The notes under the pieces were generated by a model. It searched no databases. It was given only the letters and a program-made list of their open reading frames with translations, and had not been told where the DNA came from. Shown one piece after another: positions 37,508-43,840 of a stretch of 64,000 bases of DNA. The position numbers were made by a program, and so were the translations under genes. Origin of the DNA: Chelativorans salis (lineage in GTDB: Bacteria; Pseudomonadota; Alphaproteobacteria; Rhizobiales; Rhizobiaceae). The stretch lies in assembly GCF_025336525.1 (NCBI RefSeq), contig NZ_JAOCZP010000002.1, forward strand, positions 1-64,000, given 5' to 3'. The stretch's first letter is position 1. The number at the start of each line of letters is the position of its first letter.

Positions 37508-38596
37508 TTAGTCCCTGAGAACGCTCAGCCGGTCCGCGTCCCAGTCGATCCATAGCTGCTCGGGCGGCAGGCTATCGGCCTCGCGCGCGTCCAGATACGC
37601 CTTGATAACGGCGTCGTCGCGTTCGCCGACGCGGATGTCGAGCGCGGTGCGGCTGCCCTTGAAGAGCTTATTGACGATACGGCCCTCAATGGCATTGCCC
37701 GCTTGCGGCCTGGTGGAATAGCAGTTGACGTTTTCCAGCCGTAGCGCCGCCATGACGGCGTCGCCCGTCGCCGGCTTGGCGCCATGGGCGGAGCCGCGTA
37801 CCTCGATGCCGTTCCAGTCGATAACAATGGCATCCCCGTCGCTGCCGCGCACCGTGCCTTCCAAAAGGTTGGTCTCGCCGATGAACTCGGCAACGAACCG
37901 GCTTTGCGGGCGGAAATAGAGCTCCTCGGGCGTGCCGTCCTGCTCCACCCGTCCAGCGTTCATCACCACGATACGGTCGGACATGGTCAGCGCCTCGTCC
38001 TGGTCGTGCGTGACGAAGAAGAAGGTCTTGCCGGTGCGTTTCTGGATGTCCTTCAGTTCCACCTGCACCTGCGCGCGCAGCTTTGCGTCCAGCGCGCCCA
38101 GCGGCTCGTCGAGAAGCAGGAGTTTGGGATCGGGGGCGAGTGCGCGCGCCAGCGCCACGCGCTGGCGCTGGCCGCCGGAAAGCTGGTCCGGCGTGCGGTC
38201 GCGGAACCCTCCGAGCTGCAGGAACTCTAGAAGCTCCTCGGTGCGCCTGTCGATCTCGCTGCGCGTCTTGCCCTTCAATTCCAGTCCGAAGGCCACGTTC
38301 TTGCCCACCGTCATATGGGGGAACAGCGCATAGTCTTGGAACACCATGTTGACGTCGCGCCGATTGGGCGGCAGGCGCGTCACATCGGCCCCACCGAGAG
38401 TGATGCGCCCCTCGTTCGGGGTTTCGAAGCCGCCAAGCATGCGCAGTGTCGTCGACTTGCCGCAGCCCGAGGGGCCGAGGAAGGTGACGAACTCGCCGGC
38501 CATGATTTCCATGTCCAGTTTGTCGACGGCGACGGTGGAACCGAAGCGCTTGGTGATCTTGTCGAGATGGACGATGACATCGCGTTGATCGGTCAT
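37508..38596 (-). CDS. ABC transporter ATP-binding protein (PotA-type)
   Basis: A 362-residue ATPase. Walker A FLGPSGCGKSTTLRMLGGF, Q-loop MVFQDYALFPHMTV, signature LSGGQRQRVALARALAPDPK, Walker B LLLLDEPLGALDA and switch VTHDQDEAL are all present. A TOBE domain follows from about residue 280. This is the polyamine/opine-type (PotA) importer subunit. ATG at 38596 is one base after the stop of potC; GTG at 38605 is an alternative. It is the last gene of a six-gene unit starting at 43840. Confidence 0.95.
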   Translation of the reverse strand: MTDQRDVIVHLDKITKRFGSTVAVDKLDMEIMAGEFVTFLGPSGCGKSTTLRMLGGFETPNEGRITLGGADVTRLPPNRRDVNMVFQDYALFPHMTVGKNVAFGLELKGKTRSEIDRRTEELLEFLQLGGFRDRTPDQLSGGQRQRVALARALAPDPKLLLLDEPLGALDAKLRAQVQVELKDIQKRTGKTFFFVTHDQDEALTMSDRIVVMNAGRVEQDGTPEELYFRPQSRFVAEFIGETNLLEGTVRGSDGDAIVIDWNGIEVRGSAHGAKPATGDAVMAALRLENVNCYSTRPQAGNAIEGRIVNKLFKGSRTALDIRVGERDDAVIKAYLDAREADSLPPEQLWIDWDADRLSVLRD

Positions 38597-38597
38597 G

Positions 38598-41723: not shown

Positions 41724-42836
41724 TCACCCGGGCTGGGTTGCCCTTTCATAACCTTCCTGTGATAGGATCTTTAGTTCGTCGAGTGTCAATCTATTCAGTG
41801 CCAGCGCATCCAGGAGCTGGTTTTCGGTGAAAAAGTTGCGGCCGTAGAGGGCCGAGAAAATCTCGACGCCCGAGCGGTGAAGTTTTGCCTCACGGCCCGT
41901 AAGCTCGCCCAGTTTTACGGTCATCAGGAGGCCGTAGGGTACGTCCTCCGTGACATAGCGGCTGTCGGCCGTCGCCGGCCCTGTGCCGCCGCGGCCCTGG
42001 CGGTGCATCTCCTGGTTCATGTTGGACACTGTGTCCTGCGGCACATGGAAGGACAGGTGGAAGTGCTCGAAGATCGTGCGCACCGATAGGTCCAGCGCCT
42101 CGGCGATCGCCAAACGCTCGCGGTCGAGTGCCTCCAGCAACCGGCCAACATTGGGCGTGACGTTGTAGCCCTGGCTCCAGGTCTCGCTATGCTCCATTCG
42201 CGTCATGTTGCAGAGCGCAATGCCCATGTGGTTCTGCGGGTTGAGGTTGCTGAGCGAGATCGCAAGGAGCCCGTCGCGCTCCACGAAACGGTCGCCGAAG
42301 AGCCGCTGGCAGAGCGCCACGCCCTCGGTCGCGCGCGCGTTCGGCACGGTACACAAGTCGATCTTGCTGCGCACCGTGTTGACGCTGGCTTCCACATAGC
42401 TCGGCTGGCGGCCGGTGGTGGCCGTCGTGCCCCAGGCGACGATGGGCACGCTGAGCCCACGCTGCGCCAGAAGCCGCGAGAGATAGAGTGCGCCGAAGGA
42501 GGCGTGGGAGGAGATGATAACGGCCTGGTCGGGCCGGACATGTGGGGCGATGGCGTCGAAAACGGTTTTGTGGCCATAGCCGGGCAGGGCGATCAGGATG
42601 AGGTCGGCACCCTCCACCAGCGCCGCGGCATCGGAGGCCACGCCGGGATGGAACGTGCCTTCGACAGCGCCCGTTGCCGTCAGCGGCTCACCCGCGGCGA
42701 GCCGCTCGGTGCGCGTGCCCGAGGGCGACCACAGCACGGGCCGGTGCCCGGCCTGCTCCAGAAACGCCGCCGCGCCGAAGGCGATGGCCCCGGCCCCGGC
42801 GATCCCCACGGTCAGCCGATCCTTCTGCGTGTTCAT
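41724..42836 (-). CDS. Opine-dehydrogenase-family protein (NAD/NADP octopine/nopaline dehydrogenase type)
   Basis: A 370-residue enzyme. The N-terminal Rossmann domain starts VGIAGAGAIAFGAAAF (GxGxxxG type). The C-terminal alpha-helical domain (residues about 185-330) has NLNPQNHMGIALCNMTRMEH and LEALDRERLAIAEALDLSVR, the pattern of octopine/nopaline dehydrogenases, with the histidine in PQNH the probable catalytic residue. These enzymes form or split N-(carboxyalkyl) amino acids. Start overlaps the transaminase stop (ATGA), so the two are translationally coupled. With an importer downstream, the catabolic direction is more likely: cleavage of an opine-like compound. Confidence 0.85.
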   Translation of the reverse strand: MNTQKDRLTVGIAGAGAIAFGAAAFLEQAGHRPVLWSPSGTRTERLAAGEPLTATGAVEGTFHPGVASDAAALVEGADLILIALPGYGHKTVFDAIAPHVRPDQAVIISSHASFGALYLSRLLAQRGLSVPIVAWGTTATTGRQPSYVEASVNTVRSKIDLCTVPNARATEGVALCQRLFGDRFVERDGLLAISLSNLNPQNHMGIALCNMTRMEHSETWSQGYNVTPNVGRLLEALDRERLAIAEALDLSVRTIFEHFHLSFHVPQDTVSNMNQEMHRQGRGGTGPATADSRYVTEDVPYGLLMTVKLGELTGREAKLHRSGVEIFSALYGRNFFTENQLLDALALNRLTLDELKILSQEGYERATQPG

Positions 42837-43840
42837 TGGCTCAGCCCCCCGGTTTCGGTCCGTTTGTCGTTCTTGTCCTGTGCGGGATATCGCACCGGCG
42901 TCGACCACTCGTCGGCGCTGTGCATCTCCCAGTAGAGACTGCTCAGCCGCTTCGTCACCGGGCCGACGCGGCCGTCGGCAACCGGCGCCCTGTCGATGCG
43001 CGTCACCGGCATGATGCCGCCGGCCGTCGAGGTGACGAACACCTCGTCGGCGCCGCGCAATGCCCTTTCCGTCAGCGGAGCGGCCTCGGCCTTCAAGGAG
43101 AGGCGGGCGCATAGATCGAACACGGTTCGGCGGGTGATGCCCGGCAGAACCCCGCGCTCCGGCGTGGTCAATGCTCCGTCCTTGACAGCGAAGACGTTGA
43201 AGCCCGGACCTTCGGCGATATTGCCCGCTTGGTCGCGCAGCAGCACTGTGTCTCCCCCACGATCAAACGCTTGATAAACCCCTTCGACAAGATCAAGCCA
43301 GTGATAATTCTTGATGGTTGGATCAACGGAGGCGGGCGGTATGCGCTGCACGTCCGAGATGATTACATGCAGGCCATCGGCCATCTGCGCTTCATTGGCG
43401 ACCGAGCCGAAGGGGACGGCAAAGGCGAGGAACCGGTTTTCCGCATCCCGCGGATCCCGGCTGAAAGTGGGCGACACGCCGCGCGTGCAGATCATCTCGA
43501 CATAGGCGTTGCGCAGCCCCGACAACGCCACGCAGTTGCTCAAAACGGCGGCGATCTCTTCGCGGCTTTGCGAAAGCCGCATGCGCAGCCGCGAGACGCT
43601 GGAAAAAAACCGGTCCAGATGCAGGTCGAGGCGGAAAAACCGCCCGTCCCAGACGTGCACCGTGTCGTAGGTGGCGTCGGAGTGCAGAAACCCCCAATCG
43701 AGAATGGAGATCTTCGCCTCGGATATGGGCAGGTACTGGCCCTCCGTATAGGCGATGCCCCGCGGGTAGCGGGCCCGGTCGTCGTAGCGCTCGCTCACCC
43801 GTGGAAACAGCGTATCGGGCTGTTGCTGTGGTGCTGTCAT
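42833..43840 (-). CDS. Class IV transaminase resembling (R)-selective amine transaminases
   Basis: A 335-residue fold-type IV PLP enzyme. It begins with an extended N terminus, then ISEAKISILDWGFLHSDATY, DTVHVWDGRFFRLDLHLDRF, the PLP lysine in DPTIKNYHWLDLV, AGNIAEGPGFNVFAV and RGVLPGITRRTVFDL. The DQGF-like loop followed by HSDATYDTxHVWxGxFFRL and the SIDP/SVDP-x-x-KN context match known (R)-amine:pyruvate transaminases more than branched-chain or D-alanine transaminases. The natural substrate is unknown. It is the first gene of a six-gene operon and diverges from an Lrp/AsnC gene. Confidence 0.88.
   Translation of the reverse strand: MTAPQQQPDTLFPRVSERYDDRARYPRGIAYTEGQYLPISEAKISILDWGFLHSDATYDTVHVWDGRFFRLDLHLDRFFSSVSRLRMRLSQSREEIAAVLSNCVALSGLRNAYVEMICTRGVSPTFSRDPRDAENRFLAFAVPFGSVANEAQMADGLHVIISDVQRIPPASVDPTIKNYHWLDLVEGVYQAFDRGGDTVLLRDQAGNIAEGPGFNVFAVKDGALTTPERGVLPGITRRTVFDLCARLSLKAEAAPLTERALRGADEVFVTSTAGGIMPVTRIDRAPVADGRVGPVTKRLSSLYWEMHSADEWSTPVRYPAQDKNDKRTETGGLSQ

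Follow-up and report, generated by a model that had tools for sequence, protein, structure and literature searches.

What might be taken up and degraded by an operon that couples a transaminase and an opine-type dehydrogenase to a polyamine-type importer? The question is raised by the window analyzed here, a stretch of 64,000 nucleotides of Chelativorans salis (contig NZ_JAOCZP010000002.1, positions 1 to 64,000). The preliminary description had claimed that the genes of a fold-type IV transaminase (TA4) and an opine-type dehydrogenase (ODH) overlap in it by ATGA and are followed by a PotD-type binding protein with a twin-arginine signal and by PotBCA. This layout was confirmed in the sequence, with the ATG of ODH at 42836-42834 and the TGA of TA4 at 42835-42833. 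Missed at that stage were five upstream genes (44578-50227), which encode a probable flavin monooxygenase (FMO), two CMD-domain proteins (CMDa and CMDb), an MFS protein and a class V pyridoxal phosphate enzyme (AT5); three of them are near-universal partners of ODH.

Our comparison indicates that the operon is widely conserved in bacteria and that its probable function is the uptake and breakdown of an opine-like amino-acid compound. In a more specific reading, which we favor tentatively and with less than even confidence, ODH-PotDBCA would be the downstream half of a split catabolic operon (AT5-MFS-FMO-CMDa-CMDb // ODH-PotDBCA) for an opine-like substrate, the degradation of which would end at threonine or 2-amino-3-ketobutyrate, with TA4 feeding Kbl. 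Opine-type catabolism is already known in kind; the new and unusual element would be the link of a relative of (R)-amine transaminases to 2-amino-3-ketobutyrate. If right, this reading assigns a class of substrates to a conserved operon labelled polyamine uptake in Sinorhizobium meliloti, and it suggests what enzymes related to the (R)-amine transaminases, which are widely used in biocatalysis, do in nature.

The conserved unit around the opine-type dehydrogenase

An alignment of 12 ODHs was scanned against genome contigs, and the best 80 loci of the 259 relatives obtained were used for counts; 20 of these 80 were shorter than 20 kb, and gene presence was scored by thresholds of identity and length. 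PotD, PotB, PotC and PotA were each present in 78 of the 80 ODH loci, FMO, CMDa and CMDb each in 77, and FMO, CMDa, CMDb, ODH and PotD all together in 74. AT5 was found in 34 loci, an MFS gene in 32, a MATE gene in 10 and either type of exporter in 40, and the regulator genes were Lrp (29/80) and XRE (36/80). TA4 occurred in a single locus (L047), where it lies beyond PotA on the opposite strand. Because of these counts, the conserved unit is FMO-CMDa-CMDb-ODH-PotDBCA, with AT5 and the exporter as optional members, and the Lrp-TA4 pair is an insertion between CMDb and ODH that splits a larger operon in this strain. ODH and the Pot genes lie together far more often than chance would allow. Conservation does not extend to the pairing of TA4 with ODH, and the idea that transaminase and dehydrogenase form the core of a pathway, as had been claimed, is not borne out.

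Within the order, ODH matches at E <= 1e-40 were found in 16/297 genomes, the strain's own included. Relatives below ~45% identity from this sample (L030-L034) were left out of the counts and carry other transporters, and in one relative of 31% identity (L035) a Pot set lies at a distance of a few genes. Gene order varies, many rhizobial relatives having PotDBCA-FMO-CMDa-CMDb-XRE-ODH, and in a few loci (L064, L076 and the plasmid locus L019) ODH and the Pot genes are kept without FMO and CMD. Eight records were examined for FMO contexts, among 45 matches listed of 334 matching records. FMO-CMDa-CMDb lie beside polar amino-acid importers instead in Aminobacter (L063), Pantoea (L203) and Rhizobium N113 (L204, there with AT5), and they therefore form a module of their own. 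That the same enzymes occur with differing transporters, regulators and exporters fits a catabolic module.

ODH (41724-42836, minus strand) scored 120.8 bits with Pfam Octopine_DH (PF02317; cutoff 30), and no NCBIfam model matched it at 1e-5. Its only strong solved relative is N-(1-D-carboxylethyl)-L-norvaline dehydrogenase (CENDH, 1bg6; 1.8e-33 by sequence, 6.6e-44 by profile). Residues N199, H203 and D298, invariant in the 12 ODHs, align with N198, H202 and D297 of CENDH, which we take to be its catalytic residues. The claimed opine-type dehydrogenase is thus supported, by family profile and residue conservation, as a member of the octopine/nopaline/CENDH family. The Octopine_DH domain is common to CENDH, octopine dehydrogenase and the enzyme of the window; the latter, however, is distant, and what is conserved is its operon rather than a free-standing synthase gene. 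In an agrobacterial opine catabolic operon, an importer would be combined with an opine-splitting oxidoreductase; the window has the importer and ODH, and no opine oxidase was recognized.

The binding protein PotD (40513-41622, minus strand; Pfam SBP_bac_8 above cutoff) begins with MGKFITSRRGFIKSG, a signal of the twin-arginine type that reaches 19.8 bits with Pfam TAT_signal, just below the cutoff of 22.7. On the same strand follow the permeases PotB (39380-40387) and PotC (38598-39383), both above the cutoff of Pfam BPD_transp_1, and the ATPase PotA (37508-38605; ABC_tran above cutoff). We take D39, E185, D247 and D278 to be the four acidic ligand residues of PotF. Among 78 PotD orthologues, the position of D247 is occupied by P in 77 and by A in one, that of D278 by Y in all 78, and that of D39 is variable (N 31, K 21, D 19, Q 3, and others). 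E185 aligns with an invariant Asp in the MAFFT alignment of the 78 orthologues, a column that is uncertain and unmatched in the pairwise alignment. The absence of two of the four acidic residues from the predicted pocket argues against a polyamine ligand. The importer is of the same type as PotABCD and PotFGHI, as had been claimed, and PotF and PotD are the nearest solved relatives of its binding protein, but at ~70 bits only and with a pocket that, by residue alignment, appears unlike that for polyamines.

The same genes are found together on pSymB of S. meliloti 1021, with identities of 62% for ODH, 63% for FMO, 59% for CMDb, 57% for PotA and 50% for PotD. According to PMC3596328, SMb20278-SMb20285 are eight neighboring co-regulated genes, altered in the transcriptome of glnD and glnBglnK mutants, for a LysR regulator, a putative polyamine ABC importer, a pyridine-nucleotide oxidoreductase, a hypothetical protein and a CMD protein; SMb20284 is named among possible polyamine transport proteins in PMC3484140. 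We infer that the ODH gene lies just beyond these eight, as SMb20286. The two clusters have the core of CMDb, CMDa, FMO, PotABCD-type importer and ODH in common, whereas that of S. meliloti has a LysR regulator and a published label of putative polyamine uptake, and TA4, AT5 and MFS were not found in its stretch. No paper on the whole operon was found in the open-licence literature. Polyamine uptake, as annotated in S. meliloti, would agree with the Pot-type transporter and with the labels that the two papers give to the cluster or its binding protein. We nevertheless regard it as highly improbable, given the P and Y at the positions of D247 and D278 and the presence of ODH and FMO/CMD genes without a role in polyamine use.

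Linkage to threonine breakdown

Threonine dehydrogenase (Tdh) and Kbl together convert threonine to glycine and acetyl-CoA. The kbl gene was found in 26/80 and tdh in 25/80 ODH loci; tdh accompanies kbl in 24 of the 26 kbl-bearing loci, and in the remaining two the contig stops inside kbl or shortly behind it. Four arrangements were observed, with kbl upstream (14 loci), directly downstream of ODH (9), directly before FMO (2) or inverted (1). The NCBIfam cutoffs were passed by the Tdh of L104 and by the Kbls of L019, L117, L172 and the window's genome, that of L177 falling just short. On the Agrobacterium plasmid pAt1D1609b (L019) the gene order is PotDBCA-ODH-kbl-SDR, and the SDR protein matches the solved SDR-type L-threonine 3-dehydrogenases 3wmw (4e-152) and 7eps (8e-151), one of which bears only an epimerase name. 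These two unrelated threonine dehydrogenases beside the same ODH are the strongest functional clue. In many relatives, both genes of threonine breakdown, or the SDR-type replacement of Tdh, thus stand beside ODH, whereas the kbl-tdh pair of the window's genome is located on another contig. The linkage of both genes to ODH suggests that the amino acid freed by ODH is threonine or is converted to 2-amino-3-ketobutyrate.

In the pathway that we propose, PotDBCA would import an opine-like (N-carboxyalkyl) amino-acid compound, and ODH with NAD(P)+ would oxidize it to an amino acid and a 2-oxo acid. FMO, both CMD-type proteins and AT5 may act on another part of the molecule, and the MFS pump could expel a released metal or a toxic intermediate. 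The amino acid would be threonine or a beta-substituted relative, or would lead there, and thence to 2-amino-3-ketobutyrate, which Kbl would split into glycine and acetyl-CoA. The gene identities, their conservation and their linkages are read directly from the compared loci; what is predicted from them comprises all of the reactions, the substrate and the direction in which the pathway runs.

The transaminase and its link to kbl

TA4 (42833-43840, minus strand; Pfam Aminotran_4 above cutoff) had been described as a rare enzyme type with (R)-amine transaminase signatures. Its 13 best solved relatives (E <= 1e-75) are (R)-amine transaminases with 262-282 bits, and some chains at 230-272 bits are named branched-chain aminotransferases, the depositors' names being mixed. 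Bacterial chains under either name scored 226-245 bits, archaeal-type branched-chain enzymes 161-187 bits, and several other branched-chain enzymes and D-alanine aminotransferase 85-116 bits (the latter ~97). All NCBIfam matches were below cutoff, the best being to a branched-chain subfamily (191 of 363 bits). TA4 keeps the catalytic K and the NxxW, HSD, TYD and VWDG motifs in common with (R)-amine transaminases (e.g., 4cmd, 4ce5, 4chi, 6xwb). It has, however, YDTVHVW where the fungal (R)-enzymes, separated from it by a long branch, have YDVPSVW, and the loop SPTFSRDPRD for their GVRG, with F in place of Arg; we take YDVPSVW and this Arg to be active-site motifs of (R)-amine transaminases. The claimed signatures therefore hold for the best scores and do not hold for these two motifs, and TA4 is assigned to a YDTVHVW sub-clade of the (R)-amine transaminase lineage.

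A phylogeny against characterized (R)-transaminases had been envisaged in the preliminary description. In a tree of 59 rows, rooted on the separate D-amino-acid (L209) and branched-chain transaminases (L210, L211) of the same genome, all three above cutoff, the four fungal (R)-enzymes fell inside the TA4 family; the outgroup split had a support of only 77, with very long outgroup branches, and once the outgroup rows were added the YDT-motif rows were no longer one starred clade. The lineage is also not rare, being found in 55/297 genomes of the order (E <= 1e-75) and 11/385 of the class (E <= 1e-110), the strain's own included in both. No description of the physiological role of (R)-amine transaminases was found in the open-licence literature.

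The linkage of TA4 to kbl, counted within 3 kb, was assessed in 38 TA4 loci other than the window. It was found in 10 of them (L117, L118, L152, L171-L177), all among the 20 with the YDT motif, and in none of the 18 without it. In L047, kbl lies ~10 kb from TA4 in the same cluster. The same locus carries a second ODH gene (L047:3028-4191; product 48% identical) directly before an XRE-kbl-tdh cassette. Hydrolases of the M24 and M20 types are among the neighbors in the TA4-kbl loci. The ectoine hydrolase DoeA is the best match of two M24 proteins (252 and 243 of 613 bits), a third matches DoeA_2 (189 of 575), and two further ones match PepQ; for three M20 proteins, generic amidohydrolase and CpsA models are best and DoeB2 is next (299-313 of 550 bits). 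Ectoine catabolism, which yields diaminobutyrate, involves DoeA, DoeB2, a transaminase and AsnC/Lrp. Some TA4-kbl loci resemble it in combining DoeA-like and DoeB2-like hydrolases, a transaminase and Lrp, but have Kbl instead of the aspartate-semialdehyde branch. Such hydrolases were not found in the operon of the window.

The amines accepted by (R)-amine transaminases are adjacent to a methyl group, and therefore 2,3-diaminobutyrate would be the simplest TA4 substrate giving the substrate of Kbl. TA4 may thus be an alternative feeder, taking the beta-amino group from a methyl-carbinamine and doing for the amine what threonine dehydrogenase does for the alcohol. Going further, the TA4 sub-clade could be the natural home of (R)-amine-transaminase-type activity, as a 2,3-diaminobutyrate transaminase recruited here to an opine-degrading operon in which ODH, not a hydrolase, frees the amino acid. 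We consider this extension unlikely; if true, one uptake system would deal in two parallel currencies, threonine and its beta-amino analogue.

Two other roles for TA4 were weighed against these. As a hitchhiker inserted in front of ODH, TA4 might be no more than a common (R)-amine or D-amino-acid transaminase that brought its own Lrp and shares no substrate with the ODH core, itself an independent opine-like catabolic operon. Its presence in only 1/80 ODH loci speaks for this, as does its travelling with its own Lrp in many unrelated contexts. Yet TA4 and Lrp stand beside the core twice, at different positions (window and L047), TA4 overlaps ODH by ATGA, and TA4 and ODH are each independently linked to kbl, so that we hold this explanation to be doubtful, though it deserves serious attention. 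In the pathway of the preliminary description, ODH would split an imported opine and TA4 would directly process a D-configured or (R)-amine product, e.g., a D-amino acid. The affiliation of ODH with the opine family and the best scores of TA4 agree with it, but the core is without TA4 in 79/80 ODH loci, and TA4 is therefore not a general second step. Moreover, D-amino acids leave the kbl linkage unexplained, and the genome has a separate D-amino-acid transaminase (L209); we judge this pathway to be very improbable.

Several observations weigh against the threonine-centered pathway that we prefer. No kbl was found in the examined stretches of 54/80 ODH loci, nor in any of the nine close ODH loci of the order sample (L021-L029; the two sets have at least three contigs in common), and the window has no kbl nearby. 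The only NCBIfam match of the L019 SDR is a sub-cutoff one to D-erythronate dehydrogenase. On the side of TA4, an adjoining kbl was seen in only 1/27 loci from sampled genomes (L152), and 9/10 TA4-kbl loci come from ten plasmid records picked by hand, mostly for their annotation, and thus from a biased sample; the matches to DoeA and DoeB2 are far below their cutoffs, and some of the hydrolases are closer to other families. To our knowledge, no threonine opine has been described. Finally, FMO, CMDa, CMDb, AT5 and MFS find no explanation in an opine of threonine alone; a second moiety, a bound metal or a toxic intermediate might account for them.

Accompanying enzymes, exporter and flanking sequences

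FMO (45662-47194, minus strand; likely start at the ATG near 47170) is an NAD(P)/FAD oxidoreductase, probably a flavin monooxygenase, which matches Pfam Pyr_redox_3 and Lys_Orn_oxgnase (40.4 bits, cutoff 21.3). On nopaline-type Ti plasmids (L201:9427-18684), distant FMO relatives are accompanied by two flavin-dependent luciferase-like monooxygenases and a peptide-type importer. CMDa (45156-45731, minus strand; likely start at the ATG near 45656) is just under the cutoff of TIGR04029, and CxxC is missing in 75/75 relatives. The AhpD-like, peroxidase-related CMDb (44578-45159, minus strand) is above the cutoff of TIGR01926, and CxxC is present in 77/77 relatives. The exporter-like MFS protein (47249-48655, minus strand) has a strongly His-rich C-terminal tail, which suggests metal binding; the tail is conserved in weaker form in relatives, 30/31 of which have 7 or more His among their last 85 residues.

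These features could be accommodated by an opine-type metallophore that is made and recycled: ODH would join an amine and a 2-oxo acid, FMO would N-hydroxylate, MFS would export, and PotDBCA would re-import the chelate. An importer, an exporter and ODH in one operon, the Lys_Orn_oxgnase match of FMO and the conserved His-rich tail are in line with it. We think it quite improbable, since an exporter (MFS or MATE) is present in only 40/80 ODH loci, a nicotianamine-synthase-like or ligase gene was not recognized, the kbl-tdh linkage points to breakdown, and the S. meliloti cluster follows nitrogen-control mutants (PMC3596328).

AT5 (48683-50227, minus strand) is a class V enzyme of the cysteine-desulfurase-like fold family, with ~500 residues and conserved SPHK (lysine) and GGCACAGPY motifs; none of its solved relatives is close. 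On a Rhizobium plasmid (L204) it also occurs with FMO and CMD, in the absence of ODH. The family of AT5 raises the possibility of a sulfur amino acid substrate, the sulfur of which FMO would oxygenate and a C-S bond of which AT5 would cleave. Compatible with this idea are TauE/SafE exporter genes, which adjoin ODH in S. meliloti and AT5 in Rhizobium N113, and distant FMO relatives, which have NtaA/DmoA monooxygenases as neighbors on Ti plasmids and on plasmids of A. vitis. However, the NtaA-linked FMOs are only 33-35% identical, AT5 is absent from 46/80 ODH loci, and a search with both TauE/SafE proteins found no relative in the other loci searched, because of which a sulfur substrate is kept as a rival only, and one to which we give very little credence.

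Two Lrp/AsnC regulators are encoded on the plus strand. The first (50217-50735) is divergent from AT5 and matches the Lrp upstream of AT5 in related loci; the second (44002-44466) travels with TA4, from which it is divergent, and is convergent with CMDb. The intergenic region of Lrp and TA4 contains a palindrome, TCGGTGC-N7-GCACCGA (43924-43944), as a possible operator. The corresponding pattern (GGTGC-N5..9-GCACC) was absent upstream of TA4 in 31 other TA4 loci, and the idea of a shared Lrp operator was therefore dropped. Promoter-like sites were uninformative, as 2 were found against 2.3 expected from shuffling, and 15 terminator-like sites were found against 10.1 expected. Next to PotA, a separate sugar- or polyol-type operon (31397-36992, minus strand) encodes a TRAP DctM, two smaller upstream DctQ/DctP-like proteins, an SDR and, in separate C and N genes, a transketolase.

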